This document shows, piece by piece, positions 3,399 to 19,245 of a stretch of 46,965 nt of DNA. Origin of the DNA: Curtanaerobium respiraculi. Its GTDB lineage: Bacteria; Actinomycetota; Coriobacteriia; Coriobacteriales; Eggerthellaceae. The stretch is from contig NZ_JANIPD030000006.1 in NCBI RefSeq assembly GCF_024609215.1, positions 1-46,965 on the forward strand, in the 5' to 3' direction. The notes beneath the pieces are model-generated. The model was given only the letters and a program-made list of their open reading frames with translations. It ran no database searches and had not been told where the DNA came from. The translations under genes were made by a program, and so were the position numbers. The first letter of the stretch is position 1. Each line of letters starts with the position of its first letter.

Positions 3399-3916
3399 TA
3401 TGCGGCTCGCCGCACGCCGGCGGGGCCTCCCAGCGTGCGTGCGGGGAAGCGGTCGAACTCCTTGAGAAACGGTTCCCCGGCGATGCGGTGCAGATGATCG
3501 CCGCAGGGCGCCTCGGCGTCGAAGGTTGCGTGGGGTGCGATGCCTGCCGAGATACGCACCGCTGCTTCCGGCGCGACGCCATGGACGGCGTGCTGGAAGC
3601 CCTTGCGGCATCGGACGAGCTCTACCTCGCCGTCCCCGTGTACTTCGCGGGGGCACCCTCCCAGTTCAAAGCGGTGCTCGATCGCTTGCAGCCCCTGTAT
3701 TGGAAATGGGCCGACACCCCGAGGGGGGATCGTGTGCCGTTTCGCCCCGCGCGGCTGATGGTGATAGGCGGCGGGGGTGATCCGCATGGGTTCGAACCGC
3801 TGGTGGGGAGCGTGCGGTCGGCGTTGGCAGTTGCCCGATTCTCCGTCGAGCGCGTGGAGGCTTCGATCGGCGACGATCCGCGCGGCCATATCCGGGCATG
3901 GCTGGAGGCGCGATGA
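3377..3916 (+). CDS. Flavodoxin-like NAD(P)H:FMN oxidoreductase
   Basis: A 179-residue protein of the NADPH-dependent FMN reductase / iron-sulfur flavoprotein superfamily. The N-terminal strand followed by the phosphate-binding loop (CGSPHAGGASQRA) and the flavin-ring loop (VPVYFAGAPSQFKAVLDR, about residues 84-101) are clear. A small cysteine cluster, GCVGCDACRDTHRC (about residues 50-63), resembles the CxxCxxC segment of iron-sulfur flavoproteins, so an Fe-S cluster is possible but not proven. The gene overlaps tatD by 22 bases and overlaps ksgA in an ATGA. It occupies the place where Bacillus has rnmV between tatD and ksgA. Its redox partner is unknown. Confidence 0.75.
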   Translation: MATRRTVICGSPHAGGASQRACGEAVELLEKRFPGDAVQMIAAGRLGVEGCVGCDACRDTHRCFRRDAMDGVLEALAASDELYLAVPVYFAGAPSQFKAVLDRLQPLYWKWADTPRGDRVPFRPARLMVIGGGGDPHGFEPLVGSVRSALAVARFSVERVEASIGDDPRGHIRAWLEAR

Positions 3917-4779
3917 GCGGAAACGAAGGCAGGCTGTCCCCGTTGGCGACGCCCGCCGCCACGCGCGCGGTGCTGGAGCGCCACGGCCTGTACGCGAAGA
4001 AGTCGTTGGGCCAGAACTTCCTGGTGAACGATGCGATTCTGAAGAAGATCGCGGCGCTCGCCGATCTGAATCCCGCGGATGCGGTGCTCGAGGTGGGACC
4101 GGGCATCGGCACGCTCACGATCGCGCTTCTGAAAACCGCAGGCCGGGTGGTGTCTGTCGAGCGCGACCGCGACTTGCCCGCCGTGCTCGCGGAGACCTGC
4201 GCGCCCTGGAAGGACCGGTTCACGCTGGTCGAGGGCGATGCGCTTGGGCTTGCTCCCGCCCAGCTTCCCTTCGAGCCGACGAAGCTGGTCAGCAACCTGC
4301 CCTATGCCGTCGCGGCGACGGTGGTGCTGGGGTATTTCGAACGGTTCCCCAGCTTGCGCCAGGCGACGGTGATGGTGCAGGCCGAGGTGGCGGACCGCAT
4401 GGCCGCCGCTCCCGGCGCGAAGGACTACGGGGCGTACACGGTCAAGCTGCGCCAGCTCGCGCGGGTGGCGGGCCGCTTCAACGTGGCCCCCGGGAATTTC
4501 TTCCCGCCCCCGCATGTGCAGAGCAGCGTCATCCGCTTGGACCGCGTTGGCGGAGAGGCCGATCCCGCGGTCGCGACGATGGCGGATGCCGCATTCGCCA
4601 ACCGCCGGAAGACCATCGCGAATTCGTGCCGCGCCTATTTCGGGGAGCGTGCGACCGCCGACCAGCTCGCGGCGGTGTTCGCGGAAGCGGGGATCGATCC
4701 CCGGCGCCGGGGGGAGACCCTTTCGCTCGACGATTTCCGCGCTCTCGCGACAGCGGCCCGTTCCGCAAGGCTCGCATAG
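3913..4779 (+). CDS. rsmA: 16S rRNA dimethyladenosine transferase
   Basis: RsmA/KsgA methylates A1518 and A1519 (E. coli numbering) of 16S rRNA with S-adenosylmethionine. The protein shows the QNFLVN entry motif, the SAM-binding loop EVGPGIGTLT (about residues 58-67), the VERD segment, and the catalytic motif SNLPY (about 125). The C-terminal ANRRKTIANS region is typical of the family. I chose ATG 3913, which overlaps the previous stop (ATGA 3913-3916) and has GGAGG at 3904-3908; an in-frame ATG at 3898 would add five residues. At 288 residues the length is normal. It ends the metG operon. Confidence 0.95.
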   Translation: MSGNEGRLSPLATPAATRAVLERHGLYAKKSLGQNFLVNDAILKKIAALADLNPADAVLEVGPGIGTLTIALLKTAGRVVSVERDRDLPAVLAETCAPWKDRFTLVEGDALGLAPAQLPFEPTKLVSNLPYAVAATVVLGYFERFPSLRQATVMVQAEVADRMAAAPGAKDYGAYTVKLRQLARVAGRFNVAPGNFFPPPHVQSSVIRLDRVGGEADPAVATMADAAFANRRKTIANSCRAYFGERATADQLAAVFAEAGIDPRRRGETLSLDDFRALATAARSARLA

Positions 4780-4780
4780 G

Positions 4781-4797
4781 CGTTGCATGTTGCAACG
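4781..4797. repeat. Inverted repeat just after ksgA, in a 386-base gap
   Basis: CGTTGCA (4781-4787) and TGCAACG (4791-4797) form 7-base arms around TGT, starting one base after the ksgA stop. There is no T-tract, so this may be an operator or mRNA 3' structure and not a classical terminator. The rest of the gap (4780-5165) holds three near-direct copies of TTATGAAGC or CATGAAGC between 5013 and 5058, the palindrome GGGAATTCCC (5062-5071), and the veg promoter. I see no gene in it. Confidence 0.45.
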
Positions 4798-5108
4798 TTG
4801 TCGGCATCGGCGCGCAGCCGGGGCGGCGGCCCGCATGCGCTGCGAGACCGCTTCCAGGGCGGCGTCCTCTGCAAGGGGTGTTCGGCTCGGCGCCCGCTTT
4901 TCCTAGGCGCCCTCGATCCGCGCACGTGCCGGGCGGGGCGCGCATCGCTGCCGCCGTTTCCAATGGCGCCCCGTTATCGCTCGTTGCCTTGCGCGTCGCC
5001 CCCTTCTGGGCTCATGAAGCTTATGAAGCGCTGGAAAGCGACTCTTATGAAGCGTTCATGGGGGAATTCCCTCCAACTTGTAGGGAATATGGGAATCATT
5101 GACCGCGA

Positions 5109-5117
5109 TGGTAGAAT
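5109..5117 (+). promoter_or_regulatory. Extended -10 promoter of veg
   Basis: TGGTAGAAT (5109-5117) is an extended -10 element 49 bases upstream of the veg start. No -35 at the normal distance is convincing. An inverted repeat ATTCCC (5066-5071) / GGGAAT (5083-5088) lies just upstream and could be a regulator site. A purine-rich GAGAAAGAAG (5146-5155) serves as the ribosome-binding site. Confidence 0.5.
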
Positions 5118-5165
5118 ACGGGGCGTATTTTTGCGCTCTCGTAATGAGAAAGAAGAATGTAGTAG

Positions 5166-5504
5166 ATGGAACTCGAACAACAGGCAAATATCGTCACCTC
5201 TATCCACGACACGCTCGACTCGTTCGTCGGCCAGCGTCTGCGCGTCCGCGCTAATATGGGGCGGTCCAAGATCATCGAGAGCGAAGGCGTCCTCGTCCAG
5301 GTGCACCCGCAGCTCTTCATCATGGAGGTCGACCATAAGCGGGGCCGCAAAGCTCGCCAATCGTATCAGTATGTCGATGTCCTCACGGGGACCGTGCAGC
5401 TCAGCCAGAATGGCGAATCCCTGTTCGGGCCGCTTCTGGAAGCCCTCAACGAGAAGCCGGAAGACAAGATGACCGTGGAGGCGCCCACGCGGCTGCTCGA
5501 TTAA
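5166..5504 (+). CDS. veg: Veg family protein
   Basis: A 112-residue Veg-family protein. In Bacillus subtilis Veg is abundant and influences biofilm gene control; its biochemical role is not settled. The family core is visible: a helical start, then VGQRLRVRANMGRSKIIESEGVL (split across residues about 20-42), then HPQLFIMEV and SYQYVDVLTGTVQLS. The C-terminal tail of about 25 residues is longer than in Bacillus. The gene follows ksgA, as it does in Firmicutes, but has its own promoter across a 386-base gap. A strong hairpin follows it. Family call is confident. Confidence 0.88.
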   Translation: MELEQQANIVTSIHDTLDSFVGQRLRVRANMGRSKIIESEGVLVQVHPQLFIMEVDHKRGRKARQSYQYVDVLTGTVQLSQNGESLFGPLLEALNEKPEDKMTVEAPTRLLD

Positions 5505-5550
5505 ACGGGCGCTTCCGAAGCCGAAGCGCGGGGTCGCATCGCGTTTTTAC

Positions 5551-5585
5551 AAGCCGGGCCGGATGCTCTCTTCCGGTCCGGCTTT
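5551..5585 (+). terminator. Rho-independent terminator after veg
   Basis: A 13-base-pair stem (5551-5563 with 5572-5584, one G.T pair) closes an 8-base loop and is followed by a short T run at 5583-5585. It begins 47 bases after the veg stop and ends the metG-veg region. The T-tract is weak. Confidence 0.7.
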
Positions 5586-5724
5586 CAGTATGCGAAGGGT
5601 ATCGGAAAGGCTTCCCCGCGCGCATCCGAGTGCTCTCCGCGCGTTGATCGGCCGCTTCTAACCGCGAGCTCGCGAAGTCGTGATTCCGGACCTCGGATCG
5701 CGCATCGAGGTGCGATTTCCCCTC

Positions 5725-5753
5725 TTGACCCTTCCCGAGCGGTTTGTTAGGTT
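5725..5753 (+). promoter_or_regulatory. Sigma-70 type promoter of the Crp/Fnr gene
   Basis: TTGACC (5725-5730) and TAGGTT (5748-5753) are separated by 17 bases, with TG at 5745-5746 giving an extended -10. This is the best-formed promoter in the window. It lies 51 bases before the ATG at 5805. A pyrimidine-rich tract (TTTTCCTTACTTTTTCCTTT) fills the leader. Confidence 0.65.
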
Positions 5754-5804
5754 TTCCTTACTTTTTCCTTTTCCAAGCGGAATCCAAAGCGACGGTGAGC
5801 TTCC

Positions 5805-6491
5805 ATGGACCAGAATGTAGCCGATGCCATAATCAAGAGCACCCTCTTCGCGGGGCTCGCGCGATGCGACCTCGACCTTGCGGTGAAGAAACTCGACGTG
5901 TACCCGTCCTCGTATGAGGACGGTGAACTGCTTCTAAGCCTGGGTTCGATCTGCCGCAACGCGGGCATCGTCGTGTCCGGGAGGGTCCGCATCGACTTCT
6001 ACGACGAGGCGGGCAACCCCTCCACCATCGCTAAACTGGGTCCGGGCGGGAGCTTCGGCGAGGCCATCGCATGCTCGGGGGATCCCAGCTTGGTGCAGGT
6101 GCAGGCTGTCGGCCCCACCCAGGTGCTCTGGATAGACATCCCCCGCATCATGTCGGCGGAATACATGGCGGGAAGCCCCTATGCCGGCATGGTCATGGTG
6201 AACGCCATGCGCCTGCTGGCGCGCAAGAACATGATGCTCAACAGGAAGATGCAGATGCTTGCGCAGAAGAGGCTCCGCGACCGCATCAAGCTTTATCTTC
6301 TGCAGAGGGAGCGCCAAGATGCCGCAAACGATCAGGTCGATTTCGAGATGACGCGGGCGGCGCTCGCGAAATACCTCAGCGCCGATCGCAGCTCCCTCTC
6401 GCGCGAGCTGGGGAAGCTGCGCGATGAAGGCGTGCTGGCCCTGGAGGGGAACACCATCCGCGTGCTCGACAGAAGCTTCCTCGAAACGTAA
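5805..6491 (+). CDS. Crp/Fnr-family transcriptional regulator
   Basis: A 228-residue regulator with an N-terminal cyclic-nucleotide-binding-like beta barrel (about residues 15-130; GPGGSFGEAIA matches the conserved GxFGE turn), a long dimerisation helix (about 130-165), and a C-terminal winged helix-turn-helix (TRAALAKYLSADRSSLSREL, about 180-199). The cAMP-contact arginine context is not conserved and there is no N-terminal cysteine cluster as in FNR, so the effector is unknown. It is transcribed alone from a strong promoter. Its targets cannot be read from the sequence; the anaerobic respiration genes nearby are possible. Start ATG 5805 has only a modest GGTGAG upstream. Confidence 0.88.
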   Translation: MDQNVADAIIKSTLFAGLARCDLDLAVKKLDVYPSSYEDGELLLSLGSICRNAGIVVSGRVRIDFYDEAGNPSTIAKLGPGGSFGEAIACSGDPSLVQVQAVGPTQVLWIDIPRIMSAEYMAGSPYAGMVMVNAMRLLARKNMMLNRKMQMLAQKRLRDRIKLYLLQRERQDAANDQVDFEMTRAALAKYLSADRSSLSRELGKLRDEGVLALEGNTIRVLDRSFLET

Positions 6492-6763
6492 GCGTTCCAG
6501 GTTCGAAAAGCATCTCCCGGAACACGTCGATGTCCGTATCGCTCATGGCCTGCCGCCATTCCGCGTGCTCGGCAGTAAATCCATCGCCAGGCCGTTCGCG
6601 TAGTGGATGACGGTGCCGATGGCGACAGCATCGCGGTCTCGCCGATGAGGCGCGGGCTTGCAGCCCCATGGACGCGGCCACCCGCTCCTGCGTGCAGCCG
6701 AGCTCCTTTCGCCATACGCGAAGGAGCGGGACGAAGTGCCGGATGCCGTGTCGCGTCGGACAT
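6490..6763 (-). pseudogene. Frameshifted XRE-family regulator relic
   Basis: No single frame is intact, but three - strand frames read in order give a helix-turn-helix protein. The first piece (about 6750 to 6664) reads HGIRHFVPLLRVWRKELG then CTQERVAASMG, a typical XRE helix-turn-helix start. The second (about 6635 to 6575) reads DAVAIGTVIHYANGLAMDLL. The third (about 6580 to 6500) reads AEHAEWRQAMSDTDIDVFREM. At least two frameshifts separate them, and a further shift lies just after the ATG at 6763. It overlaps the end of the Crp/Fnr gene region only at its 3' edge. I infer a decayed autoregulated repressor whose operator may be the 16-base palindrome at 6800. Confidence 0.6.
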
Positions 6764-6799
6764 GGTGATCTGACGAATTTTTCAAAAAAGTTTCCGATC

Positions 6800-6815
6800 T
6801 GTTGCTATAGCAACA
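6800..6815. promoter_or_regulatory. Perfect 16-bp palindrome, likely operator
   Basis: TGTTGCTATAGCAACA is a perfect palindrome 37 bases upstream of the ATG of the XRE relic. It contains TGCTATAGC, which resembles an extended -10 on both strands. This geometry fits an operator overlapping divergent promoters, but no intact regulator is next to it. Confidence 0.55.
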
Positions 6816-6838
6816 ACGCGATTTTCGAAACCATGTAA

Positions 6839-6905
6839 GTTAGGGGAGTCTAATTAGAAGGCCCTAACCGAAGAGGCCGCGTATCGGGCGCTTGCGAAGC
6901 GCCCG
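6839..6905 (+). other. Two consecutive hairpins in the leader of a small ORF
   Basis: GTTAGGG (6839-6845) pairs with CCCTAAC (6862-6868) and encloses the palindrome TCTAATTAGA (6849-6858). A second hairpin has a perfect 9-bp stem, CGGGCGCTT (6885-6893) with AAGCGCCCG (6897-6905), and a three-base loop. It ends just before the GGGGAAAGG ribosome-binding site of the 35-codon ORF. I do not recognise a known riboswitch; folding was judged by eye. Confidence 0.5.
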
Positions 6906-6913
6906 GGGAAAGG

Positions 6914-7021
6914 ATGATCTCCATGTCTCAAACCAATCTCCAATCCGTATCGCGTCGCGACTTTCTGAAGTACTGGGATATCTATTTGAATGTCGACTTC
7001 AATAGTGTGAAAGAGGCGTAA
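6914..7021 (+). CDS. Small ORF with Tat-like motif, possible truncated leader
   Basis: A 35-codon ORF with a good ribosome-binding site (GGGGAAAGG, 6905-6913) and starts at ATG 6914 or 6923. Its product includes QSVSRRDFLKYWDIY, and SRRDFLK is a good match to the twin-arginine consensus. The hydrophobic stretch expected after the motif is missing and the frame ends at TAA 7019-7021. It may be the remnant of a Tat-exported enzyme whose body was deleted, or a real small protein. A hairpin (GGGGAGC 7045-7051 / GCTCCCC 7062-7068) follows. It lies 110 bases upstream of the large surface-protein gene. Confidence 0.4.
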   Translation: MISMSQTNLQSVSRRDFLKYWDIYLNVDFNSVKEA

Positions 7022-7044
7022 CGGTTCGCCTACCGGTTTGCGGA

Positions 7045-7068
7045 GGGGAGCTCGATTGAGGGCTCCCC
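7045..7068 (+). terminator. Hairpin after the small ORF
   Basis: A 7-bp G+C-rich stem (7045-7051 with 7062-7068) with a 10-base loop follows the small ORF by 23 bases. The downstream CTGTTTCC gives only a weak T-tract, so termination or attenuation before the surface-protein operon is possible but not certain. Confidence 0.4.
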
Positions 7069-7131
7069 CTGTTTCCAATGAGAACCCATGACGGGTTTGC
7101 CTGAGATTGCTAATAAAGAAAGTGAAGCGAA

Positions 7132-10100
7132 ATGATACGAAAGCATAGGCAGGTTTGGAGGATAGGTCGGAGTGCCCTTGCGATTATGCTGACCTTCGTC
7201 CTCGCTTTTTCGTCGTTGCGAGTTGATTATCTCTACGCGGGCGAAATCACTATGGCGGAACCGCCATCGAAAGCCGCTTCTGCGGTCGAAAGCCCCTCTG
7301 CTGAAGGGTTGCCTGCGGCTGCGGGGGAGAATACGCAGACGGAGTTCGATGACGGTTCGCAGGCGGTCGCTCCGGAGCCGAAAGGTGAATCTGCCGGCAA
7401 AGCTTCCAGCGTTTCTTCGGAAGATGAGGCTCAGGTTCTAGACACAGCGGACAAGTCCCGCGCAGAGCAGCCGGCTGACGCCCCCGAAGCTGTTGCCCCC
7501 GAAACGGGGCGTGCTCCCGCTCCGTTGCCGGCCCCCGAAGCGGCCTCCCCGTTCTCCCCGTTCTCCCTCGAGGGGCCGAGCCCCTCCGGCTCGCTGCTGA
7601 CGGCCTCCGGCGAGACCTCCGACGCGGCGTTCCTGGCCGCGTGCTCATCGGGCGAGGCCAAGCTCTCCCTGGCGCTGGAGGCGTCCGGGGCCCGCTTCGA
7701 GGCGGCGCGCGCCGCGCTCCAGGCGCGCTACTCCGGCGACCTCACCTTCGAGGTGTGGGACATGCAGCTGAAGGCGGGCGGCGCCGACCTGCCGCTGCCC
7801 GAGGGCTCGTCGGTCGGCCTGAAGTTCATGCGCTACGTCGACGGCTACGGCATGCCCGGCTTCGCCGGCCTGGGGGAGTCCCCCAAGTTCTTCCTGCTCG
7901 GCGCCGACGGCTCCCTCACCGAGGTGGCCCCCGGCGCGAGCGGCCCCTGCCCCGGTGTCGGGTACACGGACGAGTTCTCCTTCGACGGGCTCGTGACCCT
8001 CGTCGCCCTCAACGGCGACAACCTGAGCGAGATTCCCAGCACGACGTTGGAAGCGGGCAATTACAGCATCACAGCGAATCTGTATGTGGTTGCCGCGGAC
8101 GCGCCCATCGGGGCGAAAGCCTATATGACCACCGCGAAGTTCCCGCCTCTTGTGCCTGAATCCGACAATGCCCGGCTGACGGTAGGTGCGGATGGCTCGT
8201 TGACGCTCACGCTCTACGTGAGCAACGAAGTGTTCACGCTCCAGGATGCGACCAGCGGCGAGAAGATCAAGGTGCTCGGCGCCGAGCGGGGCGGGGCGTC
8301 TTCTTCATATGGGGCGCATGCCGACCGCATCACCAAGCTCGTGCTCTCCCTTGACAACGCGACCGATTCCACGTTCGCCCTCGGGTCGTGCACGCAGTGT
8401 CCCACGGTGTTCGGCGGGGGTGCCGACCAGCATTGGCGCATGTGCGTCGACGTGGATTTCGCCAGCATGAAGAAGGGCGGATCCACCGTCGATCCTGGGC
8501 AGGATACGTTCAGCAAAACGTATACCGATGCCGTCACCGGGATAACCGTTGCCGTGTCCACTCAGGACGCAGGGCTTGCCGCCAGGCTCGGTGCGGCTGA
8601 GCTTGCGGTAGCCGAGCACAATCGGGAGGACGATACTTACCAGACGGCGGCAAAGGCATTCTCGAAAACGTTTCTGAGCACGCCGACCATGGAGCTGTAT
8701 TCCATCGCCTTGCTCGATGCTGACGGCAGCGAGATATCCGTGGACGGCAGCAATGTGATGGTCACCATTCCGACCGGGATACGCTATATCGATTCGTATC
8801 GCGTGCAAGAGGATTTGCTGGTCACCCTTTCCTCGTTCAAACAGGGGGGCAACGTCCTCATATCCGATAGCTCCTTGGGCATCTTCGCCGTTGTTGAACA
8901 GAACTCCGCATACTATTGGGTAGATTTCGATTTTTCCGATGAATCAACCGGAGTCTCAGGCAAGATGAAGGTTGCATCCGAGCAGACCGGAGTGGAAGGC
9001 TACAAGGGCCATCTTATTTTCCAAACCGGGAAGGAACCGAGCGAATTCGGGGATGCGTACACTTTCAGCCTTCAAATGCACTTTCCGCCGCAGGACAAAG
9101 AACTGAAGGTCTGGTGGAATGATAACACCCCGGCTTCCCTGAGCTTCTCGCTTCCCGCCGGCTCGCACGGAAAGAGCGTGGCGCTCGTTCGAACGGATGG
9201 TTCCACCACCTCCCTTACGCACCTTCCCTCATCCGTCAAAGATGGGAAGATCTCGTTCGCCCTGCTTCCTTCCTCGAGCTGGATAGGCAAATGGGAGGCG
9301 ACAAAGCTCCTTTCCGATCTGCACAACGGCTGGAAGAACGGGATCGGCTCCGCGAGCGCGACGGCGCCCGTTGCCTACTTCGTCGTTTTGGATTCCGACT
9401 CGACCATCGCCTCCGATCCCCGGGTGGCGGGCAATCTGGTGTACAACGCTGCGGATCAGACGGGCATCGCCTTTGACGAGGCAACATGCGAGCTCGTGGG
9501 CGGCATGATATCCGCAAAGAACGCGGGAACGTACACGGCTTCCTTCAAGCCGAAGGACGGCTATACGTGGGCCGATGGGACGACGGCCGACAAGGAGCTG
9601 ACGTGGAATATCAAGAAGAAGTACCTTTCCTGGGAAGATAACGAATACCTCAAGTACGGGGAGGTGCCCACGTTCACCTCGACGGTGAAAGGACTCGAGG
9701 GGGATGACACTCCGGAATCCGTCGGGATCAAACCCAAGTACATCAAAGAGTCGAGCCGCCCTGCAGTGGTGGAGCCGGGAGTGAGCTATAACTTCAGGTA
9801 TTCGGACATGGTTAATTGGGACCAGGATCCATCCTTCGACAATTACTATTTCGGTCCCCCGTGCGCGGGATGCGAGAACTACCGGGTTTTCATCCAGAAG
9901 CCGACGTTCATCGAAATGCCTGCAGCTGCCACCGATCTTGTGTACAACGGGAAGAGGCAGGTCGGCGTAGCCAAGAGCGAGGGGTACGCCCTTGAGGGCG
10001 CCATCGCCACGAATGCGGGAGATTACGTTGCCACGGTGACGCCCGAACTCGGCTATGCATGGTCCGACGGCGGCAGGGAGCCCGTCCCTGTGCGCTGGTC

Positions 10101-11889
10101 CATCGCCAAGGCACCGCTGACCGCGAAGGCAAAGGACGTCACCGTGGCCCGCGGCGACGAATTGAAGCTCGAAGCCGAGGTCACGGGCTTCAAGGGCGGC
10201 GAGACCGCCGAGACCGCGGCCGGGTACGCCGCCCCCACCGTCTCCCTGCCCGCGGGAGTGACGGCGGACGGCTTGGAGCCCGGCAGGACCTACGAGCTCG
10301 GCGTTTCGGGCGGAAGCGCCAAGAACTACGAGTTCACCCGATACGAGAAGGGCACGCTCACGGTCGCCGCGGCCGGGCCGAAGCCGGACGGGCTCGCCCC
10401 CGGCACGTACGCCGTCACGGCCAACCTCGCCATGTCGGGCGCCTACAACCCGGCCATCCCCGGGCTGACCGTGTATGCGAACAGCCCCGACAACCCCTTC
10501 GGGCCCACAATCGACGAGAACGACCCCGCCGAGGTGAGGCGTGCCGTCCCGCGTGAGCCGCAGAGCATGAACGCGACGCTGGTGATGGGCCCCGACGGTG
10601 CGCGCCACCTGTTGCTGCCCATCAAGAACCCCATATTCACGACGCAGTCGCTGGGAACGTGCGCCGAGCTGCCCGATGTCCGGGTCGAGCGCGTGGCGCC
10701 GACCGCCGGCGGCGGGGAATGGAGCGGCTCCTACAACAAGAGGGCCGACCGCATCCACAAGGCGCTTATCCGCCTGCCCGGCTCCCAGTCCTCGGGCGTG
10801 GGATCCTACGACTTCGCCGGCTCGGTGCTCTACGCCGTGCCGCTGGACATGGAGATCGCCCCCGCGGGGCCGGTGGCGCTTCAGCTGACGGTCGACTATG
10901 GCAGCGCGCGCCGCACGTCCGACAGCACGAAGATCCCCGGGCTGAATGGGTCGGAGCAAGGTGGGGACGATCCTGCTCCGCAGCCTCAACCCGATCCGAA
11001 TGTGAAACCCCAGCCCGATCCGAACCAAGGCGGCGGTACGCAGCCGGGCACGCCCGGCAATCCCAATGTGCCGGCCGATCCCGGTGCCAAGCCCTCCCAG
11101 CCGACGGATCCTTCCCGGCCTGACCGCATCGCTGCAGGCACCTACACCGTGTCCGCCAACATATGGGTGGATAAGGCGACCTCCGGCCTGCCCCTGCAGC
11201 CGCATTTCACCAACGCATCCTTCCCGCCCATGAACCCGGTCGCCAAAAACGCCACCTTGCGCGTCGAATCTGACGGCCATGCCTACCTGACGGTGCCCAT
11301 CGTCATCCAGGCCAGGATCATGCAGGTGCTGTCCATCAGCGGGCTGGATATCGTGTCCTCCGAGCGCGATGGCGCGGGACTCAGCAGCATAACGGTGGAC
11401 ATGGGGATCCTCTCCCCGTCCGACACCGTGGTGACTAAATACTGCACCGCCTCCGTCCGCCTAGGCGACCTCGCCTCCACCATCATCGGCGGCGAGCGGA
11501 ATCGCACGTGGAACGCGGTGTTCCAGATGAACTTCTCCGGTCTGCCTCAGTCCGGTGGCGGCACCGTCCCCGAGGCGGCGCGCAGGCTCATGGAGGGGCA
11601 GGGCGCCGACGGGACGGCGGAGGACGCCGGATCCAAGGCGCAGAGGGCGGAGGAGGCCGCGCTCGCCGCGCTGGGTTCCGGGGGTGCGAACGCCTCGGCG
11701 GGCAAGACGCTGGGAGGCAAAGGCGCCTCCGCGGACCCGGATGCCGATGCGGCGTCCGAAGGGGGGCTCTCGCCCTTCCTGCCCGCGATCGCCCTTGCCG
11801 CCCTGGCCGCGCTGGGCGTTCTGGGGTGGTTCCTCGCCTCCGGCAGGCACCGCAGGAAGCAGCCTTCCGATGAAGGGGGCGTCCGATGA
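7132..11889 (+). CDS. Large surface protein with three Shp/NEAT-like repeats
   Basis: A 1585-residue exported protein. A signal peptide (residues about 1-36, basic start then LAIMLTFVLAFSS) and a C-terminal membrane segment (about 1549-1569) with a basic tail (GRHRRK) anchor it; there is no LPXTG. Three related domains begin AGNYSITANLYV (about 303), PGTYAVTANLAM (about 1088) and AGTYTVSANIWV (about 1333). Each continues with NATL-V-DG and a stretch of beta strands, resembling Shp/NEAT heme-binding domains. Between them lie MBG-type domains (for example VYNGKRQVGV ... NAGDYVATVTPELGYAWSDG, about 935-985) and a proline-rich linker (about 1280-1330). The stop overlaps the lipoprotein start (ATGA), tying it to an ABC importer. 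Heme binding is inferred; adhesion is the alternative. Homologues of the fold exist in Coriobacteriia (recollection, unchecked). Confidence 0.72.
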   Translation: MIRKHRQVWRIGRSALAIMLTFVLAFSSLRVDYLYAGEITMAEPPSKAASAVESPSAEGLPAAAGENTQTEFDDGSQAVAPEPKGESAGKASSVSSEDEAQVLDTADKSRAEQPADAPEAVAPETGRAPAPLPAPEAASPFSPFSLEGPSPSGSLLTASGETSDAAFLAACSSGEAKLSLALEASGARFEAARAALQARYSGDLTFEVWDMQLKAGGADLPLPEGSSVGLKFMRYVDGYGMPGFAGLGESPKFFLLGADGSLTEVAPGASGPCPGVGYTDEFSFDGLVTLVALNGDNLSEIPSTTLEAGNYSITANLYVVAADAPIGAKAYMTTAKFPPLVPESDNARLTVGADGSLTLTLYVSNEVFTLQDATSGEKIKVLGAERGGASSSYGAHADRITKLVLSLDNATDSTFALGSCTQCPTVFGGGADQHWRMCVDVDFASMKKGGSTVDPGQDTFSKTYTDAVTGITVAVSTQDAGLAARLGAAELAVAEHNREDDTYQTAAKAFSKTFLSTPTMELYSIALLDADGSEISVDGSNVMVTIPTGIRYIDSYRVQEDLLVTLSSFKQGGNVLISDSSLGIFAVVEQNSAYYWVDFDFSDESTGVSGKMKVASEQTGVEGYKGHLIFQTGKEPSEFGDAYTFSLQMHFPPQDKELKVWWNDNTPASLSFSLPAGSHGKSVALVRTDGSTTSLTHLPSSVKDGKISFALLPSSSWIGKWEATKLLSDLHNGWKNGIGSASATAPVAYFVVLDSDSTIASDPRVAGNLVYNAADQTGIAFDEATCELVGGMISAKNAGTYTASFKPKDGYTWADGTTADKELTWNIKKKYLSWEDNEYLKYGEVPTFTSTVKGLEGDDTPESVGIKPKYIKESSRPAVVEPGVSYNFRYSDMVNWDQDPSFDNYYFGPPCAGCENYRVFIQKPTFIEMPAAATDLVYNGKRQVGVAKSEGYALEGAIATNAGDYVATVTPELGYAWSDGGREPVPVRWSIAKAPLTAKAKDVTVARGDELKLEAEVTGFKGGETAETAAGYAAPTVSLPAGVTADGLEPGRTYELGVSGGSAKNYEFTRYEKGTLTVAAAGPKPDGLAPGTYAVTANLAMSGAYNPAIPGLTVYANSPDNPFGPTIDENDPAEVRRAVPREPQSMNATLVMGPDGARHLLLPIKNPIFTTQSLGTCAELPDVRVERVAPTAGGGEWSGSYNKRADRIHKALIRLPGSQSSGVGSYDFAGSVLYAVPLDMEIAPAGPVALQLTVDYGSARRTSDSTKIPGLNGSEQGGDDPAPQPQPDPNVKPQPDPNQGGGTQPGTPGNPNVPADPGAKPSQPTDPSRPDRIAAGTYTVSANIWVDKATSGLPLQPHFTNASFPPMNPVAKNATLRVESDGHAYLTVPIVIQARIMQVLSISGLDIVSSERDGAGLSSITVDMGILSPSDTVVTKYCTASVRLGDLASTIIGGERNRTWNAVFQMNFSGLPQSGGGTVPEAARRLMEGQGADGTAEDAGSKAQRAEEAALAALGSGGANASAGKTLGGKGASADPDADAASEGGLSPFLPAIALAALAALGVLGWFLASGRHRRKQPSDEGGVR

Positions 11890-13049
11890 CGGGGCGCATC
11901 ACGCGTAGGGAATTCCTGGCGCTCGCCGGCGCCGCCGCCCTCGCGGCGGGGCCGGTCCTCGCGGGGTGCTCGGCAGGCGCGGGCGGATCCGACAAGGGTT
12001 CCGCCCGGTCCGGGTCCGCATCGTCCGCAGGCATGGATGCGCCGCTCGAAGACCGTGCCCTCATGGGATCCACCGACCCCTGCGCGGTGCGGGTGGGGCT
12101 CATCATGGGGCCGCCTTCCATGGGGCTTTCCCAGTTCATGCTGGCGGCGCGCAACGACCGAACCGAAAACGCCTTCGATTTCACGGTCAACGGCGTCGAT
12201 TACATCGGGCTTTCCGCGGCGCTCAACGAGGGCGACTACGACATCGCCACCCTGCCGTCCAACATTGGCCCGATCCTGTACAACAACCATGAGCTGAAGA
12301 ACCGGTACCAGGTCATCAGCGTGAACAACCTGGGCGTGCTGTACGTCATGACCACCGATGCGGGCGTGTCGTCCCTTGCCGATCTGGCAGGGCGCCGCGT
12401 GTACAGCTATGGCGAAGGCGGCACGCCCGAGTACACCATCGAGGCGCTTCTGGCCAAGATGGGCCTGCTGGACAGCTTCACGGTCGAGTTCAAATCAACG
12501 CCCTTCGAGGTACTGAACCTGATGCAGCAGGAGCCGAACTGCGTGGCCATCCTGCCGCAGCCCTTCGTGGCGCTTTCGAAGCTCATGGTGGATCTGCTGT
12601 ACGTCCCCGTGAACATTACGTCGGAATGGGACCGCGCCTTCGCGGACACGGGCAGCCAGGCGGTCACCACGGTGACCATCGCCAACCGGACCTTCATCGA
12701 AGAGCACGAGCAGGCCGTGGTTGAATACCTGCGCATGGCGGGGAATTCCGTGTCCTGGTCGTTGGAGAACATGGCGGACGCGGCCGCCTTGCAGGAAGAG
12801 CTGGGCACCTTCATGAACAACAGCGTGGCGTTGAATGCCATGCCCAGCATCTCCATGACATGCCTGACCGGCGTGGAGATGCGCACGGCATTGGCGGGCT
12901 TTTACGAAGAGCTGTTCAAGGCGAACCCCGCCTCCATCGGCGGCGCCGTGCCCGACGGCGGGTACTACTACCTTCCGCCGGCGGGGTTGATCGAGGATGA
13001 TGCCGTCGGGAAGGCCCAGGCGGCCGCTGCAACGGGGGCGCAATCGTAG
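11886..13049 (+). CDS. Tat-exported lipoprotein, NitT/TauT-type substrate binding
   Basis: A 387-residue ABC-importer binding protein. The N-terminus has both a twin-arginine motif (ITRREFLAL) and a lipobox (VLAGC, Cys27), so it should be folded before export and then lipid-anchored. The body has the NMT1/SsuA-like pattern: VRVGLIMGPPSMGL at the first strand, DIATLPSNIGPILYNN in the ligand cleft, and SLADLAGRRVYSYGEGGTPEY at the hinge. This family binds nitrate, sulfonates, thiamine precursors and other small ligands; the ligand here is not readable. It overlaps the surface-protein gene by four bases and the permease starts directly after its stop, so all four genes form one unit. Confidence 0.82.
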   Translation: MTGRITRREFLALAGAAALAAGPVLAGCSAGAGGSDKGSARSGSASSAGMDAPLEDRALMGSTDPCAVRVGLIMGPPSMGLSQFMLAARNDRTENAFDFTVNGVDYIGLSAALNEGDYDIATLPSNIGPILYNNHELKNRYQVISVNNLGVLYVMTTDAGVSSLADLAGRRVYSYGEGGTPEYTIEALLAKMGLLDSFTVEFKSTPFEVLNLMQQEPNCVAILPQPFVALSKLMVDLLYVPVNITSEWDRAFADTGSQAVTTVTIANRTFIEEHEQAVVEYLRMAGNSVSWSLENMADAAALQEELGTFMNNSVALNAMPSISMTCLTGVEMRTALAGFYEELFKANPASIGGAVPDGGYYYLPPAGLIEDDAVGKAQAAAATGAQS

Positions 13050-14246
13050 ATGGGGCTGGCTTCCTCTGTGAAAACGACGCTGGGGGCAGTTGCGGCGCGG
13101 GGTTCGGAAACGGATCCCGCGCAGGCCGTTCCCGTGCCGGTGCCCGACATCGCGCGGGTGCTGGGGCTTCCCGAGGAGAAGGTCGCGCAGATGATCCAGG
13201 TGCTGCGCACGAACGGCGTGGACGAGCCCCAGCTTTCCTCCATGATGGCCATGGCGCATGCCAAGGGCATGCCCGCCGACAAGCTGTTCGCCATGCTCGT
13301 GTACGTGGGGGCAGGCGAGGACCGCATCATCGCGTTGATGTGCTCGCAGGATATGGTATCCGCCGAAGAGGCCGACCGCCTCGCCGCGTCCGCGCGCGGG
13401 CGTGCGCAGACGGATGCGCACGCCGGTCGTGCGCGGAGGATCCGCGCCGCCCTGAAGAAGGCGGCCATCATCCTCTTCTGGCTGGCCGTGTGGCAACTGC
13501 TCGACATGGCGATGGACAACCGGCTGGTCCTGTCCGGTCCGCTGCGCGTGATCGAAGCGTTGGCCGATCAGGTGGCGAAGCCGGATTTCTGGTTCGTATG
13601 CGCAGCCTCCCTCTCGCGCATCGCCGCGGGGTTTTTGCTGTCGTTCACGGTGGGCATGGCGCTTGCGCTGGCATCGTACCGCGTGCGCATCGTGCGCGAT
13701 TTCATCGAGCCGGTCATATCGCTTCTGCGCACCATCCCCGTGATCAGCATCATCATCATGCTGCTGATATGGGTGGGCAACCAGATGCTGACCGTGTACC
13801 TGTCCTTCCTCATCGTGCTTCCGCTCATCTACATGAACATGCTGGCGGGGCTCGAGAACGTCGATCCGCAGATGCTGGAGATGGCGCGGGTGTACAGGCT
13901 TTCGCCTTTGCGCAGCTTCCTGTACGTGTACCGGCCCGCCTTCATGCCGTTCTTGGTCAGCAGCAGCAAGCTGTCGCTGGGCATGAGCTGGAAGAGCGGC
14001 ATCATGGCCGAGGTGCTGGCCACGCCCAAGCCCTCGATCGGCAAGGAGATGGCGCAGGCGCGCACGTATTTGAACACCCCCGACCTGTTCGCGTGGACCG
14101 TCGTGGTCATGTTGCTGAGCTGGCTGTTCGAGAGATTGTTCATGGAGCTGCTGAAGAAGGCGGCGGGTCCTTTGGGATCGTTTCTGGGTCGCGGCGAAGA
14201 CGATGGACCCGGTGCGGGCCCGGGTGCGGCGGGGTACGGCGTATGA
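13050..14246 (+). CDS. ABC permease (SsuC/TauC type) with extra N-terminal domain
   Basis: A 398-residue inner-membrane permease. Residues about 137-370 carry six membrane segments, and the EAA-loop region (ENVDPQMLEMARVYRLS, about 266-282) couples it to the ATPase. Unusually, about 130 soluble residues come first, predicted helical (VPDIARVLGLPEEKVAQMIQ, about 30-49), with no membrane segment. SsuC/TauC permeases are normally about 250-280 residues, so this is an added domain of unknown role, perhaps regulatory. The start is ATG 13050, immediately after the previous stop. The gene ends in an ATGA overlap with the ATPase gene. Confidence 0.85.
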   Translation: MGLASSVKTTLGAVAARGSETDPAQAVPVPVPDIARVLGLPEEKVAQMIQVLRTNGVDEPQLSSMMAMAHAKGMPADKLFAMLVYVGAGEDRIIALMCSQDMVSAEEADRLAASARGRAQTDAHAGRARRIRAALKKAAIILFWLAVWQLLDMAMDNRLVLSGPLRVIEALADQVAKPDFWFVCAASLSRIAAGFLLSFTVGMALALASYRVRIVRDFIEPVISLLRTIPVISIIIMLLIWVGNQMLTVYLSFLIVLPLIYMNMLAGLENVDPQMLEMARVYRLSPLRSFLYVYRPAFMPFLVSSSKLSLGMSWKSGIMAEVLATPKPSIGKEMAQARTYLNTPDLFAWTVVVMLLSWLFERLFMELLKKAAGPLGSFLGRGEDDGPGAGPGAAGYGV

Positions 14247-14833
14247 GAGTGACGATGTCGGGCGTAGGGAAATCCTACGGCTCCCAGCGCGTGCTGGATG
14301 GGTTGGAGCTCGTATTGGAAGACGGCGGGCGCTACTGCCTCATGGGGCCTTCGGGTGCGGGTAAGACCACGCTGCTGCGGATCCTGCTGGGGCTGGAGCG
14401 CCCGGACGCGGGTTCCATCGAGGGCCTGCCGCGCGGGTCGGCGTCGATGGTCTTCCAAGAGGATCGGCTGTGCTCGGCGCTCACGCCGGTGGAGAATATC
14501 GCGCTCGTGATGCCGGGCCGGGCGAGCCGCCGTGCGCTGCGCGCGCTGCTGGCGGAGGTGCTTCCCGCGGCATGCCTGGACAAGCCGGCGCTCAACCTGT
14601 CAGGCGGGCAGCGCCGGCGCGTCTCGCTGGTCCGCGCCATGGCGTTTCCCAGCAGCCTGGTGGTTATGGACGAGCCCTTCACGGGGCTCGATCGGGCGAC
14701 TAAGCAGGTGGTCATCGATTTCGTCGCACGGCATTTGGACGGGCGCACGCTTTTGGTGTCGACGCACGGTGAGGATGACGCGGACCTGCTGGATGCCGAG
14801 AAGGTGCAGCTAGCGGAGATTCAGGGGAAGTGA
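14243..14833 (+). CDS. ABC transporter ATPase of the same importer
   Basis: A 196-residue ABC ATPase. Motifs in order: Walker A GPSGAGKTT (about residues 35-43), Q-loop VFQEDRL (about 72), signature LSGGQRRRVSL (about 116), Walker B SLVVMDEPF (about 136) and H-loop STHGEDD (about 171). It is about 50 residues shorter than most SsuB/TauB proteins, missing the C-terminal tail, but all catalytic motifs are present. The start is ATG 14243, which overlaps the permease stop (ATGA). A longer reading of the frame upstream is a shadow of the permease gene. Confidence 0.9.
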   Translation: MRVTMSGVGKSYGSQRVLDGLELVLEDGGRYCLMGPSGAGKTTLLRILLGLERPDAGSIEGLPRGSASMVFQEDRLCSALTPVENIALVMPGRASRRALRALLAEVLPAACLDKPALNLSGGQRRRVSLVRAMAFPSSLVVMDEPFTGLDRATKQVVIDFVARHLDGRTLLVSTHGEDDADLLDAEKVQLAEIQGK

Positions 14834-14931
14834 ACGCTTTGGAGGGCGAAGGCCTCGCGTTCCGGTTTTCGTCCGAGCGGAGGCCGCGCCGATGTGGCCA
14901 GGCGATATCCATGCAGACGGAAGGAATTGAC

Positions 14932-15183
14932 ATGTTTGCCATCGACGACGGGAAGTGCATGCGCGACGTGGTGCTGGACGAACCCCTTTTCGGGGACTTC
15001 CTGGTGGACAAGGGCTTTCCCTTCTCCATCGAGAACCCCATCACCGAGCTCGTGACGTTCGAGGACGTGGTGCAGATGCACCAGCTGGATCGGCGGGCCT
15101 TCCTCGCGGAATATGAGGACTACAAGGCGCGTGGCGGCGCGCTCGCGCCGGGTGCGGGGAAAGCCGTGGACGCGCCGTTCTGA
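14932..15183 (+). CDS. Small protein, DUF1858-like by eye
   Basis: An 83-residue acidic protein from ATG 14932, preceded by GGAAGGA (14919-14925). The frame is also open from GTG 14830, which overlaps the ATPase stop (GTGA) and would add 34 residues; ATG 14911 is a third choice. The core (CMRDVVLDEPLFGDFLVDKG ... LVTFEDVVQMHQLD) has the helical pattern of DUF1858 domains, short regulators often found near hybrid-cluster or radical enzymes, but the usual CxxC is absent. Its position between the ABC operon and the activase gene suggests cotranscription with one of them. Function unknown. Confidence 0.55.
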   Translation: MFAIDDGKCMRDVVLDEPLFGDFLVDKGFPFSIENPITELVTFEDVVQMHQLDRRAFLAEYEDYKARGGALAPGAGKAVDAPF

Positions 15184-15237
15184 TCCGCCCCGCAAACGGG
15201 GTTTCGGGGGTTGCAGCGAAGAAGCAGGAGGGTGAAG

Positions 15238-18200
15238 ATGTACTGCTTGGGAATAGACATAGGCTCGTCATCGGTGAAGCTGGTCGCCGTGGGGGAGGAT
15301 CGCACCATACTGCTCACCCGCCAGCTCCGGCACGGCGGCGATGCGCTTGCGTGCCTTGCCGGGTTGCTGTGCGAGGTGGATGCCGATCTCGGCTTGGATG
15401 CCTGCCTGCGATGGTGTACCACCGGCGCGGGCGCGGGCTCCGTCTCCAAGCTCGTGCCCGATGCGCGCTCGCTCGGGACCGTGCCGGCCCTTACCTTGGG
15501 CGCGGAGCTCATCGCCCCCCATGCGCGCTCCATCGTGGAGATGGGTGCCCAGAGCGCGTGCTACATCACCGACGTGGGGGCGGCCCGCCCTCCCCGCTTC
15601 GCGGCGAACGACGGTTGCGCCGCTGGAACGGGGTCGTTCTTCGAAGACCAGATGGGAAGGCTCGGGCGCGAAATCGAGGACTACTCGCGCCTCGTCGCGG
15701 GCGCCTCCTCCATCCCCCGGCTCTCGGGGAGGTGCGCCGTGTTCGCGAAGACCGATATCATCCACCGCCAGCAGGAGGGCGTGCCCGTCGAGGACATACT
15801 GCTGGGGCTTTGCTACGCGATGGTGCGCAGCTACCGGGCGCTCATCGTGCGGAAGCTTCCCGTGCAGGCGCCCGTCGCCCTTTCCGGCGGGGTGCTGCGC
15901 AACGCGGGCGTCGTGCGCGCCGTACGCGAGGTGTTCGATCTGGGTGAAGGGGAGCTGCTCGCCGACGAGGGCCAGCTGTTCTTCCAAGCGGCCGGAGCGG
16001 CCCTGCAAGCGTGGGAGGACGTTCGGCAGGCTGGCGGGGATGGCTCGCCGCGCCTGCGCGACCTTCTAGATGCATGCCGCGGCGAGATCGTCGGGGAGCC
16101 CTTGCCGCGGCTGGAGCCCCTTCCCCCCGTATCATTGGAAACCGGCCCGGGGTACGTCCTCGCGCCGGAACCCTGGCCGACTGACGGGGATGGGCGCGTT
16201 CCCTGCGCTCTGGGAATCGACGTGGGGTCCACGAGCACGAACCTGGTGCTGGTGGACAGGGAGGGCGGCGTGCTGCACGCGCAGTACGCGCGCACGCGCG
16301 GCAACCCGCAGAAGGCGGTGCGGGAAGGGCTCGCCCTCATCGGGGAGCGCCTGGGGGAGCGGGTGCGCATCGTGTCGGTCGCCACCACGGGATCGGGGCG
16401 TTCGCTGATCGGGCATCTCGTCGGCGCCGATGCGGTCCGCGACGAGATCAGCGCGCAGGCGCGTGCGGCGGCGGAGATCGACTCACAGGTGGATACCGTG
16501 TTCGAGATCGGCGGGCAGGATTCGAAGTACATCGCGCTTGAGGCCGGTGCGGTCGTGGACTTCCAGATGAACAAGATATGCGCGGCGGGGACCGGATCGT
16601 TCATCGAAGAGCAGGCGGCGCGCATCGATATCCCGCTAGAAGACTACGGAAGGCAAGCCCTTTCGTCCACCGCCCCGGTGGACTTGGGAGAGCGCTGCAC
16701 GGTGTTCGTGGAGACGGCGATCAACGCCGCGCTCGCCCAAGGGGCGGAGAAGCGCGATATCGCCGCCGGCCTGTGCCAATCCGTCATCCGCAACTACCTG
16801 CACCGCGTGGTGGGGCAGAAGCGCGTGGGCGACCATATCGTTTTGCAAGGCGGCGTGAACTACAATGCGGGGGTGGTTGCCGCCTTCAAGCAGTTCTACG
16901 GCGACAGGGTGAGCGTGTCCCCGCACTTCGCGGTCAGCGGCGCAGTGGGTGCCGCGCTGCTGGCGTGGGAAGCCGCCCCTCCTCGCACGTCGTTCCGCGG
17001 CTTCGATCTGAAGGGGCCGGTGGCGGAAAGGCGCAAAGCGGGGTCGACGGCGATCGATGAGAACCGCGCGTTCTTCCATGCGACGAAGGATCTGCTGCTG
17101 GAGGGCTACGAGCCCGTGGCAGACCCCTCGAAAAAGACCGTGGGGATCCCGCGCTGCCTTATGGTCTACAAGCTGTTCCCGCTGTTCAACGCATTCTTCC
17201 ACCATCTGGGCTTCAACGTGCTCATCTCCGACGAGAGCAGCGAGGAGACCATCGCGCTCGCCCAGCGCCTGGCGCAGGGGGAGACCTGCTATCCCGTGAA
17301 GCTCATCCACGGGCATATGCGGCAGCTGCTCGACCGCGGGGCGGACTATATCTTCATGCCCTCGATCCACACCATCCGCCACAAGCACTCCACGCTCGCG
17401 CACAACTACGGCTGCCCCTACATGCACGAGGCGCCGCGGCTGGTTGCGAACGAGCTGGATCTGGAGGGGCGCGGCGTGAAGCTGCTCTCGCCCCTGCTGG
17501 ATCTGGATTTCGGGCAGCAAGCCATGGCCAGTGCGATGCTGGGGGTGGGCGAGCAGCTGGGCGCCGATCCGCACGAGGCCGCGCGCGGCCTTCTGGCGGG
17601 GAGCCGCGCGGTCGGCGAGTTCACCCGCAAGACCGAGGAGGCGGGGGAGCGTCTCCTCGCATCGCTGGCGCCCGACGAACGCGTGATCGTCATGGTCACG
17701 CGCAATTACGGCATAGAGGACGCCGTGCTGAACATGGGCATCCCCGACGCCTTGATCGACCGTGGGCAGAAGGTGATCACGATCTCCCACCTCCACGGCC
17801 ACGACATCGATATATCCGACGACTATCCGAACGTGTACTGGCCCTTCGGCCAGCATATCCTATCCTCCTGCAAGATCATCGCCCGCGACCCGCGCCTATT
17901 CGCCGTGTATCTGACGAACCACGGTTGCGGTCCCGATACCATGCTGTCGCATTTGGTCGCGGAGGAGATGGGCGACAAGCCCTACCTGCAGATCGAAGTG
18001 GACGAGCACTTCTCGAAGGTGGGCGTGATCACGCGCATAGAGGCGTTTTTGAACAGCCTGGACCACCGGGCGGGGATGGTTGCCGAGGAGAATCCAACGA
18101 TAAAGGAACGCGCGGCGGCTGAGGGGGATTTCGAAGCGGAAGGGATGCGCGTCCGCCGCTCGGACACCCTCTCTCGCGACCTGCCGGTGCTCATCCCCTC

Positions 18201-19245
18201 GTTCGGACCGTATGGGAAGCTCATCGCAGCTTGGCTGGAGGGCAGGGGCTACGAGGCCCGTGCCGTGCCGCTGGATCGGGGGAGCCTTTCCCGCGGCAAG
18301 GCGTATTCCACCACGAAGGAGTACCTGAGCTTCTCCGCGTTGCTGGGGATGGGGCTCGCGGCCCGCGATGCAGCTGCGGGCAAGCCGTTCCAGCTCCTGT
18401 TGCCGTCGGGCGAGGGGTCCGATGCCGACGGCGTCTACGACCGCGTCGTGCAGAGCGTCATGGAGAACGAGGCGCCGGGCGGGCGCGCCGGCGTGCGCTA
18501 CGTCGCGCCGCGCCTGGAGAGGCTGCCCGAACTTGTCAGCGACTTCGAAGGGCTGTTCCGCTGCCTTTTGGCGGGCGATGTGGTTGCCGCCGCCCGCCCG
18601 GCGGACCGCGCCCGAATCCTCGAGCAGCTTACCGCCTCCGGCTGCGCGCCCGAAGCGCTCATGGGGGCGGCGGAGGATGTCGGATGCACGGCACGCCGCG
18701 ACGGGGCCGATCCGTCGCAGCTCGATTCCGCCTGCCGCGTCCTCGCAGTGGGGGAATGGCTCATCGTCGCCGAAGACGGGCTGAATTCGGGCGTGCTCTC
18801 CGCGGCGGAGGAGCGGGGATGCACCGTCTGCCGCATGGCGCTTTCCGAATACGCCTGGTTCCTATGGTGCGATGCGTTCGAGGATGAGGCGCGGTTCGCC
18901 CCCCTGGTGGAGGCGATGGAGGAGATCGGAGGACTTTTGGGGCCGGCATCCCCCTTCGCCGCGGATCCGCATGCGCTGAGGGGCATCGCCTCCGACCGCG
19001 TCGGGCGCGTCCGCGCCGCGAACATCCGATACCGCATCGCCCGAACCGTCGGCGCGGCGGGGAGGTTCGACGGCGTGGTGTGCGTGTCGTCGATGTACGA
19101 GAACGCCGACATCATGGGCCAGCTGATCGAATCGGCCGCCCCGGCGCCCCTGCCCGTCCTGCATCTTTCGTTCGACGGAACGCTGGGCTCTTCGGAGGGG
19201 GAGAAGCTCTCGTCCTTCCTGTACTTTCTCGAGCGGAAGCGGTGA
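15238..19245 (+). CDS. Fused double acyl-CoA dehydratase activase-like protein
   Basis: A 1335-residue protein. Two BadF/BcrA-type ASKHA ATPase domains come first (about 2-255, starting GIDIGSSSVKLVAV; and about 322-575, starting GIDVGSTSTNLVLVD), each with the GCAAGTGSF or ICAAGTGSF loop whose Cys binds the [4Fe-4S] cluster in 2-hydroxyglutaryl-CoA dehydratase activases. A DUF2229-type region (about 636-860) follows, with conserved Cys in IPRCLM, GETCYPVK and YGCPYMHE, then a region like the HgdB/double-cubane proteins (SSCKIIARD, NHGCGPDTM). The family is ATP-driven low-potential electron transfer; the substrate for such fused forms is unknown. Start ATG 15238 has GGAGGGTG upstream; a TTG at 15211 is less likely. 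Confidence 0.85.
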   Translation: MYCLGIDIGSSSVKLVAVGEDRTILLTRQLRHGGDALACLAGLLCEVDADLGLDACLRWCTTGAGAGSVSKLVPDARSLGTVPALTLGAELIAPHARSIVEMGAQSACYITDVGAARPPRFAANDGCAAGTGSFFEDQMGRLGREIEDYSRLVAGASSIPRLSGRCAVFAKTDIIHRQQEGVPVEDILLGLCYAMVRSYRALIVRKLPVQAPVALSGGVLRNAGVVRAVREVFDLGEGELLADEGQLFFQAAGAALQAWEDVRQAGGDGSPRLRDLLDACRGEIVGEPLPRLEPLPPVSLETGPGYVLAPEPWPTDGDGRVPCALGIDVGSTSTNLVLVDREGGVLHAQYARTRGNPQKAVREGLALIGERLGERVRIVSVATTGSGRSLIGHLVGADAVRDEISAQARAAAEIDSQVDTVFEIGGQDSKYIALEAGAVVDFQMNKICAAGTGSFIEEQAARIDIPLEDYGRQALSSTAPVDLGERCTVFVETAINAALAQGAEKRDIAAGLCQSVIRNYLHRVVGQKRVGDHIVLQGGVNYNAGVVAAFKQFYGDRVSVSPHFAVSGAVGAALLAWEAAPPRTSFRGFDLKGPVAERRKAGSTAIDENRAFFHATKDLLLEGYEPVADPSKKTVGIPRCLMVYKLFPLFNAFFHHLGFNVLISDESSEETIALAQRLAQGETCYPVKLIHGHMRQLLDRGADYIFMPSIHTIRHKHSTLAHNYGCPYMHEAPRLVANELDLEGRGVKLLSPLLDLDFGQQAMASAMLGVGEQLGADPHEAARGLLAGSRAVGEFTRKTEEAGERLLASLAPDERVIVMVTRNYGIEDAVLNMGIPDALIDRGQKVITISHLHGHDIDISDDYPNVYWPFGQHILSSCKIIARDPRLFAVYLTNHGCGPDTMLSHLVAEEMGDKPYLQIEVDEHFSKVGVITRIEAFLNSLDHRAGMVAEENPTIKERAAAEGDFEAEGMRVRRSDTLSRDLPVLIPSFGPYGKLIAAWLEGRGYEARAVPLDRGSLSRGKAYSTTKEYLSFSALLGMGLAARDAAAGKPFQLLLPSGEGSDADGVYDRVVQSVMENEAPGGRAGVRYVAPRLERLPELVSDFEGLFRCLLAGDVVAAARPADRARILEQLTASGCAPEALMGAAEDVGCTARRDGADPSQLDSACRVLAVGEWLIVAEDGLNSGVLSAAEERGCTVCRMALSEYAWFLWCDAFEDEARFAPLVEAMEEIGGLLGPASPFAADPHALRGIASDRVGRVRAANIRYRIARTVGAAGRFDGVVCVSSMYENADIMGQLIESAAPAPLPVLHLSFDGTLGSSEGEKLSSFLYFLERKR

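Follow-up and report, generated by a model that had tools for sequence, protein, structure and literature searches.

NEAT domains are described in the consulted part of PMC7815599 as heme chaperones of Gram-positive bacteria, which feed IsdE- or HtsA-type importers. In the consulted part of Honsa et al. (2014, PMC4143258), a YXXXY motif is given for 165 out of 343 NEAT domains, and an Eggerthella sp. is said to have a NEAT domain of 159 residues with neither SXXXXY nor YXXXY. Judged by titles and the starts of abstracts, this was the only open-access paper found to touch NEAT domains in the Eggerthella group, and the pairing of a NEAT-type surface protein with a NitT/TauT-type importer was not found in that literature. 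Here, we analyzed a gene cluster in a 46,965-nucleotide stretch of Curtanaerobium respiraculi DNA (NZ_JANIPD030000006.1, referred to as the window), in which the gene of a 1585-residue surface protein is followed by the genes of a twin-arginine translocation (Tat) lipoprotein of the substrate-binding protein (SBP) type, an ATP-binding cassette (ABC) permease, and an ABC ATPase. Based on structure models and sequence profiles, we conclude that three predicted domains of the surface protein represent a distant, divergent branch of the NEAT superfamily, falling into two types, A (d1 and d2) and B (d3). With moderate confidence, we propose that the protein is a divergent NEAT-fold surface relay feeding its own dedicated NitT/TauT-type importer.

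The Shp and HtsABC-type system resembles this cluster in that a NEAT-fold surface domain is encoded beside a lipoprotein-bearing ABC importer, and Shp was among the best structural matches of the d1 and d3 models. However, that system uses PF11545, PF01497, and FecCD, whereas the present one has no PF11545 match, almost no domain copy with the VxxM pattern of the Shp and NEAT controls, a PF09084/PF00528 importer, and a multi-domain surface protein in which type B stands last. The Isd-type NEAT proteins (IsdA, IsdC, and IsdX1; PF05031) are alike in fold and in the idea of a multi-domain chain from the outside to the membrane, but neither a PF05031 match nor YxxxY was found here. The Eggerthella sp. 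NEAT domain comes from the same wider bacterial group; it was compared by its description, and the consulted part of PMC4143258 mentions no importer. The NitT/TauT importers (SsuABC, TauABC, NrtABC, and SaoP) share PF09084, PF00528, and PF00005 over the cut-off, but here no NCBIfam equivalog was reached and a surface partner is present. The BadFG/BcrAD activases with DUF2229 appear to have a counterpart downstream of the importer genes, in which both domains score over the cut-off; it differs in being encoded beside a NitT/TauT-type importer.

The surface protein gene (7132-11889, plus strand) encodes domains in the order A-A-B, an MBG_2 domain, and a C-terminal hydrophobic helix, and an export signal was recognized by eye. 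The three related domains described in the original prediction were recovered by profile at residues 305-451 (d1, type A; 8044-8484), 1087-1265 (d2, type A; 10390-10926), and 1332-1476 (d3, type B, nearest the membrane; 11125-11559), all on the plus strand, and d1 and d3 also by structure model. The MBG_2 domain lies at residues 996-1077 (10117-10362, plus strand; PF18676, 34 bits with a cut-off of 25). The start motif [AP]G[NT]Y[ST]-[VI]-[TS]AN, which had been assigned to all three domains, holds for d1 and d3 but not for d2, which reads PGTYAVTAN with A at the [ST] position. In the fetched family loci, the three-domain profile matched 10 other surface-protein open reading frames (ORFs) and four small ORFs at E ≤2.3e-12, and one further fragment at E 2e-5; therefore, the domain repeat is not due to chance. 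Type B was the last domain in all 20 multi-domain ORFs holding one (including two pairs that are one gene or near-copies), 42-145 residues before the frame end, and a membrane helix was detected by a crude pattern in 15 of the 20. The surface protein of genome G102 (L198, 6894-11504) combines a single type A domain with two of type B, and its SBP gene is located on a different contig.

The structure models of d1 and d3 had predicted local distance difference test (pLDDT) values of 93.3 and 92.9. NEAT or Shp chains occupied VIA ranks 1-27 for the d1 model and 1-9 for the d3 model, and Foldseek with the d1 model placed IsdX1 (probability 1.00) and Shp (0.98) both within rows 1-4. An adhesin fold had been named as a contrary outcome; no adhesin-only fold ranked first for the two models. 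When the profiles of d1, d2, and d3 were compared with a NEAT+Shp profile, they reached 89, 76, and 80%, respectively, and six other segments of the surface protein, including MBG, did not exceed 1.8% with the NEAT, the Shp, or the combined profile; these percentages are one-pair values rather than database searches, one of the control profiles consists of just one row, and each of the three domain profiles recruits the others. The Shp/NEAT resemblance suggested by the original prediction is thus borne out by the structural ranking of d1 and d3 and by the profiles of all three domains. Against the NEAT and Shp profiles, A1 scored 28.7 and 38.8, and A3 scored 29.4 and 27.5; block-shuffled NEAT or Shp columns never scored above 22 in the 60 trials run for each pair, and reversed profiles scored less than 13. 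Pooled sets reached 94%. The positive control, Shp against NEAT profiles, gave 98.6%, and the type A and type B profiles were related to each other at 98.9%. The Pfam NEAT model PF05031 matched neither the whole surface protein at E 0.1 nor any of 29 domain copies at E 1. Likewise, no match of the Pfam Shp model PF11545 was found in the surface protein or in the 29 copies; this model does match in 21 of 341 clostridial genomes.

The pairing of the surface gene with the importer is conserved well beyond the source strain, so that the other contrary outcome named in the original prediction, a gene order confined to one strain, did not arise. Among 119 genomes of the family, an SBP match at E 1e-10 was present in 42; the best match had at least 55% identity in 13 of them and at most 38% in the remaining ones. 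A NEAT-type domain was found in 13 genomes belonging to 9 of 48 genera, and these were the same 13 that carry the close SBP. If kinship is ignored, the chance of such identical sets is 1.3e-17 when genomes are counted and 6e-10 when genera are. In 10 of these 13 genomes, the distance between the surface gene and the SBP gene was about 3 kb or less. Furthermore, the pair occurs in a genome of another family of the same order (L068), in Slackia exigua (L106), in Leucobacter edaphi (L077), in Intestinimonas butyriciproducens (L078), and in a Clostridiales metagenome-assembled genome (L079). In a midpoint-rooted tree of 39 SBPs, 20 of which lack a surface partner, the 19 with a partner (three unlinked pairs being counted as such) formed a single group with support of 100/100 across two phyla. 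The pairing of the surface protein and the importer is stable, and a divergent NEAT branch without the usual iron ligands goes with a different importer class in two phyla.

The assignment of the importer to the NitT/TauT class was sound, with PF09084, PF00528, and PF00005 all over the cut-off. The SBP (387 residues; 11886-13049, plus strand) matched PF09084 with 23.9 bits (cut-off 20.5) and visual inspection indicates a twin-arginine leader with a lipobox (TRREF...LAGC); the SBP family profile retrieved PDB 3hn0 ('nitrate transport protein') with E 1.2e-12, the only PDB match at E 0.01. The permease (398 residues; 13050-14246, plus strand) matched PF00528 with 67.5 bits at residues 200-358, and an additional N-terminal stretch of some 130 residues (13050-13440) was noticed by eye; the related permeases of L077 and L079 have a length of only 256-262 residues. 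The ATPase (196 residues; 14243-14833, plus strand) matched PF00005 with 86.0 bits. None of the importer proteins reached an NCBIfam equivalog or subfamily cut-off (Ssu, Tau, Nrt, and Sao); the permease came nearest to SaoP (92.9 of 295 bits), and the SBP scored 19.7 of 163.5 bits against the SsuA family. The importer is not of the PF01497/FecCD class, since the window proteins match PF09084 and PF00528 instead.

The four ORFs lie on the plus strand where the original prediction had placed them, joined by an ATGA overlap at 11886, a TAG stop abutting an ATG start at 13049/13050, and a second ATGA overlap at 14243. These joins are consistent with the claimed translational coupling in the window, but coupling does not hold as a general trait, since the gaps in the relatives vary. 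Based on predicted ORF limits, the surface and SBP genes are 3-89 bases apart in L034, L044, L068, L078, L079, and L106, and about 260-270 bases apart in L032 and L033. In L035, L036, L038, L039, and L077, they are separated by other ORFs or by more than 1 kb. In the window, the chain runs past the ATPase gene: a small ORF overlaps its end at 14830 (GTGA), and a much longer one starts at about 15238 and ends at 19245. Three components had not been considered earlier, namely the CRP-type regulator, the BadFG/DUF2229 protein, and the partner with one domain; when they are included, the unit widens to approximately 5805-19245.

The long ORF (15238-19245, plus strand) is predicted to encode a single protein that carries DUF2229 as well as two activase domains of the BadFG type, with 223.5 bits over two stretches for PF01869, 183.8 bits for PF09989, and 260 bits for TIGR00241. 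A match to this protein at E 1e-60 was present in 49 of the 119 family genomes. When up to five candidates per genome were scored, matches with at least 44% identity over long stretches were found in all surface-protein genomes but one (12 of 13), plus G020 and G087; the exception, G102, gave no match at E 1e-60. Eleven of the 13 genomes have the gene beside the importer; in G117, it is on another contig. In G020 (L194) and G087 (L195), a related importer is accompanied by the BadFG/DUF2229 protein, and the vicinity lacks a NEAT-type surface protein. L194 also has a CRP-type regulator and, by eye, small cupin-like ORFs. In Leucobacter L077, no BadFG protein was found within the 20 kb examined.

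The fold relation, the domain order, the gene order, and the co-occurrence of the genes underlie the proposed relay. According to this model, the type A domains of the surface protein would catch the ligand, and in many relatives the single-domain partner may help in the capture. We infer that the ligand would then move from the type A domains to the membrane-proximal type B domain, which would hand it to the Tat lipoprotein for import by the NitT/TauT-type permease and ATPase. In most lineages, the BadFG/DUF2229 protein may subsequently act on the ligand or on a product made from it. The presence of a BadFG-type partner at most loci points to oxygen-free reduction chemistry.

The nature of the ligand was approached through residue patterns in the last 62 residues of 29 mixed domain copies, 23 type A copies, and 9 type B copies, with 14 clostridial Shp and 11 clostridial NEAT domains as controls. 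VxxM near the C-terminus was present in 14/14 Shp and 11/11 NEAT controls, whereas it occurred in none of the 23 type A, 1 of the 9 type B, and 2 of the 29 mixed copies. The sole type B case is d3 of the window itself, with VFQM in the last strand. YxxxY was absent from all three sets (0/29, 0/23, and 0/9), but it was also rare in the controls (1/14 Shp and 0/11 NEAT). By eye, YVxPM of Shp corresponds to YxVPL or EYPTLL in these domains, indicating that Met is replaced by Leu, or by Val in d1. At the lip position, Tyr was found in more than 90% of the type A rows and His in 9/9 type B rows, and type B has an invariant Met1397 and an invariant His1358. The original prediction had favored heme as the ligand, and this is unsupported: the iron-ligand pattern of the controls is missing, PF05031 and PF11545 do not match, and the organism may synthesize heme itself, as its genome has a full-length AhbD-like match (483.5 bits, cut-off 500). 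A second, weaker match nearby (212.9 bits) may be an AhbC partner. The cytochrome genes in the vicinity, which had been taken as a need for heme, are no evidence of heme import. Nevertheless, since NEAT domains are known as heme chaperones, we tentatively regard heme or another tetrapyrrole as the likeliest single ligand class, at somewhat less than even probability. Weighing against a tetrapyrrole, the residue patterns suggest that iron would need to be held in a different way. If heme is the ligand, its binding and import would be of a new kind; if it is not, the NEAT fold would serve a different compound.

A strict form of the heme explanation states that the domains bind heme through unusual ligands, such as His1358 and Met1397, and that the SBP represents a heme-binding lipoprotein of a new class. 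The NEAT/Shp fold of d1 and d3 and the conserved lip Tyr and His residues agree with it, as does S....[YF] in the lip stretch of 7 of the 29 copies, including d2 and d3 of the window. Moreover, a PF01497/FecCD importer is located just upstream in L077, in a gene run (2532-15501) that also holds a methyltransferase gene and the NitT/TauT-type importer genes, with the surface gene and its single-domain companion between the two importers. However, VxxM is scarce in these domains and uniform in the controls, YxxxY is absent, and the AhbD-like match may point to an internal heme supply. Furthermore, the clostridial genome G502 already has a canonical Shp locus, with the Shp gene beside PF01497 and FecCD genes, in addition to an A-B protein encoded beside NMT1 and PF00528 genes; thus, two NEAT-type receptors go with two importer classes in one genome. 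Strict heme import is doubtful in our judgment. If heme is the ligand, the cluster would represent a new heme route in Eggerthellales, among them Gordonibacter, Slackia, and Paraeggerthella.

A reuse of the NEAT fold for a non-tetrapyrrole ligand, namely a metal complex, an aromatic compound, or a vitamin-like molecule that is a substrate or cofactor of the BadFG/DUF2229 protein, is likewise rather unlikely. It accounts for the missing iron-ligand pattern, the NMT1 class of the SBP, and the BadFG/DUF2229 protein near the importer even where the surface protein is lacking. It also agrees with a second surface protein of Slackia exigua (L071, 9653-13705), in which type A domains occur inside a zinc-type gene cluster. 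This protein is A-A without type B, the only such protein with an intact C-terminus among those inspected, and it sits away from the NitT/TauT-type importer, with a zinc-type SBP gene (AztC, 183 of 350 bits), ZinT, and PF01497 genes as neighbors, a placement that also counts in favor of the proposed relay; the type A domain thus also accompanies metal-type uptake genes. On the other hand, we know of no non-tetrapyrrole NEAT ligand besides whole proteins, such as hemoglobin. A more specific form of the relay, in which the domains without known iron ligands bring a tetrapyrrole or another ring compound to the NitT/TauT importer and the BadFG/DUF2229 protein, as an ATP-driven reductase, reduces or opens it without oxygen, is improbable. 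If true, it would be an undescribed anaerobic route of capture, import, and reduction common to Eggerthellales and Clostridia.

The surface protein is very unlikely to be an adhesin or host-protein binder with an incidental genomic tie to the importer: it is long and has an MBG_2 domain, some NEAT domains bind proteins (consulted part of PMC7815599), and the surface and SBP genes are on different contigs in 3 of the 13 genomes (G063, G102, and G117), but the identical genome sets, the single SBP group across phyla, and the small A-B versions of about 530 residues adjoining the SBP gene in Clostridia argue against this reading. That the NEAT likeness is a mere shared Ig-like arrangement without common descent is equally hard to credit, since structure and sequence point to the same family and wide alignments gave 76-94% overall with controls below 8%, although the Z values were middling, no Foldseek E was below 0.001, and type A and type B reached no more than 30-35% and 12%, respectively, with narrow alignments.

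Returning to the genes around the proposed relay and its importer, a CRP/FNR-type regulator is encoded at 5805-6491 on the plus strand (PF13545, 47.0 bits; PF00027, 44.8 bits), and CRP-type ORFs were also found near the locus in L034, L037, L042, L044, L068, L077, L079, L199, and L200. In eight of the fetched loci (L032, L034, L037, L068, L077, L197, L198, and L200), the surface gene is preceded by a complete single-domain type A ORF, and L035 has a type B single-domain ORF downstream of the surface gene. At the corresponding side in the window, a 35-codon ORF (6914-7021, plus strand) has a twin-arginine-like start and, in translation, ends like the final strand of type A; it has probably been left over from the single-domain partner gene after an internal deletion. 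The small protein encoded at 14830-15183 on the plus strand matched no family in the domain-library scans; by eye, it recalls DUF1858. A related sequence is present in several relatives; some of them have it in frame with the ATPase, as in L035, where the two are fused.
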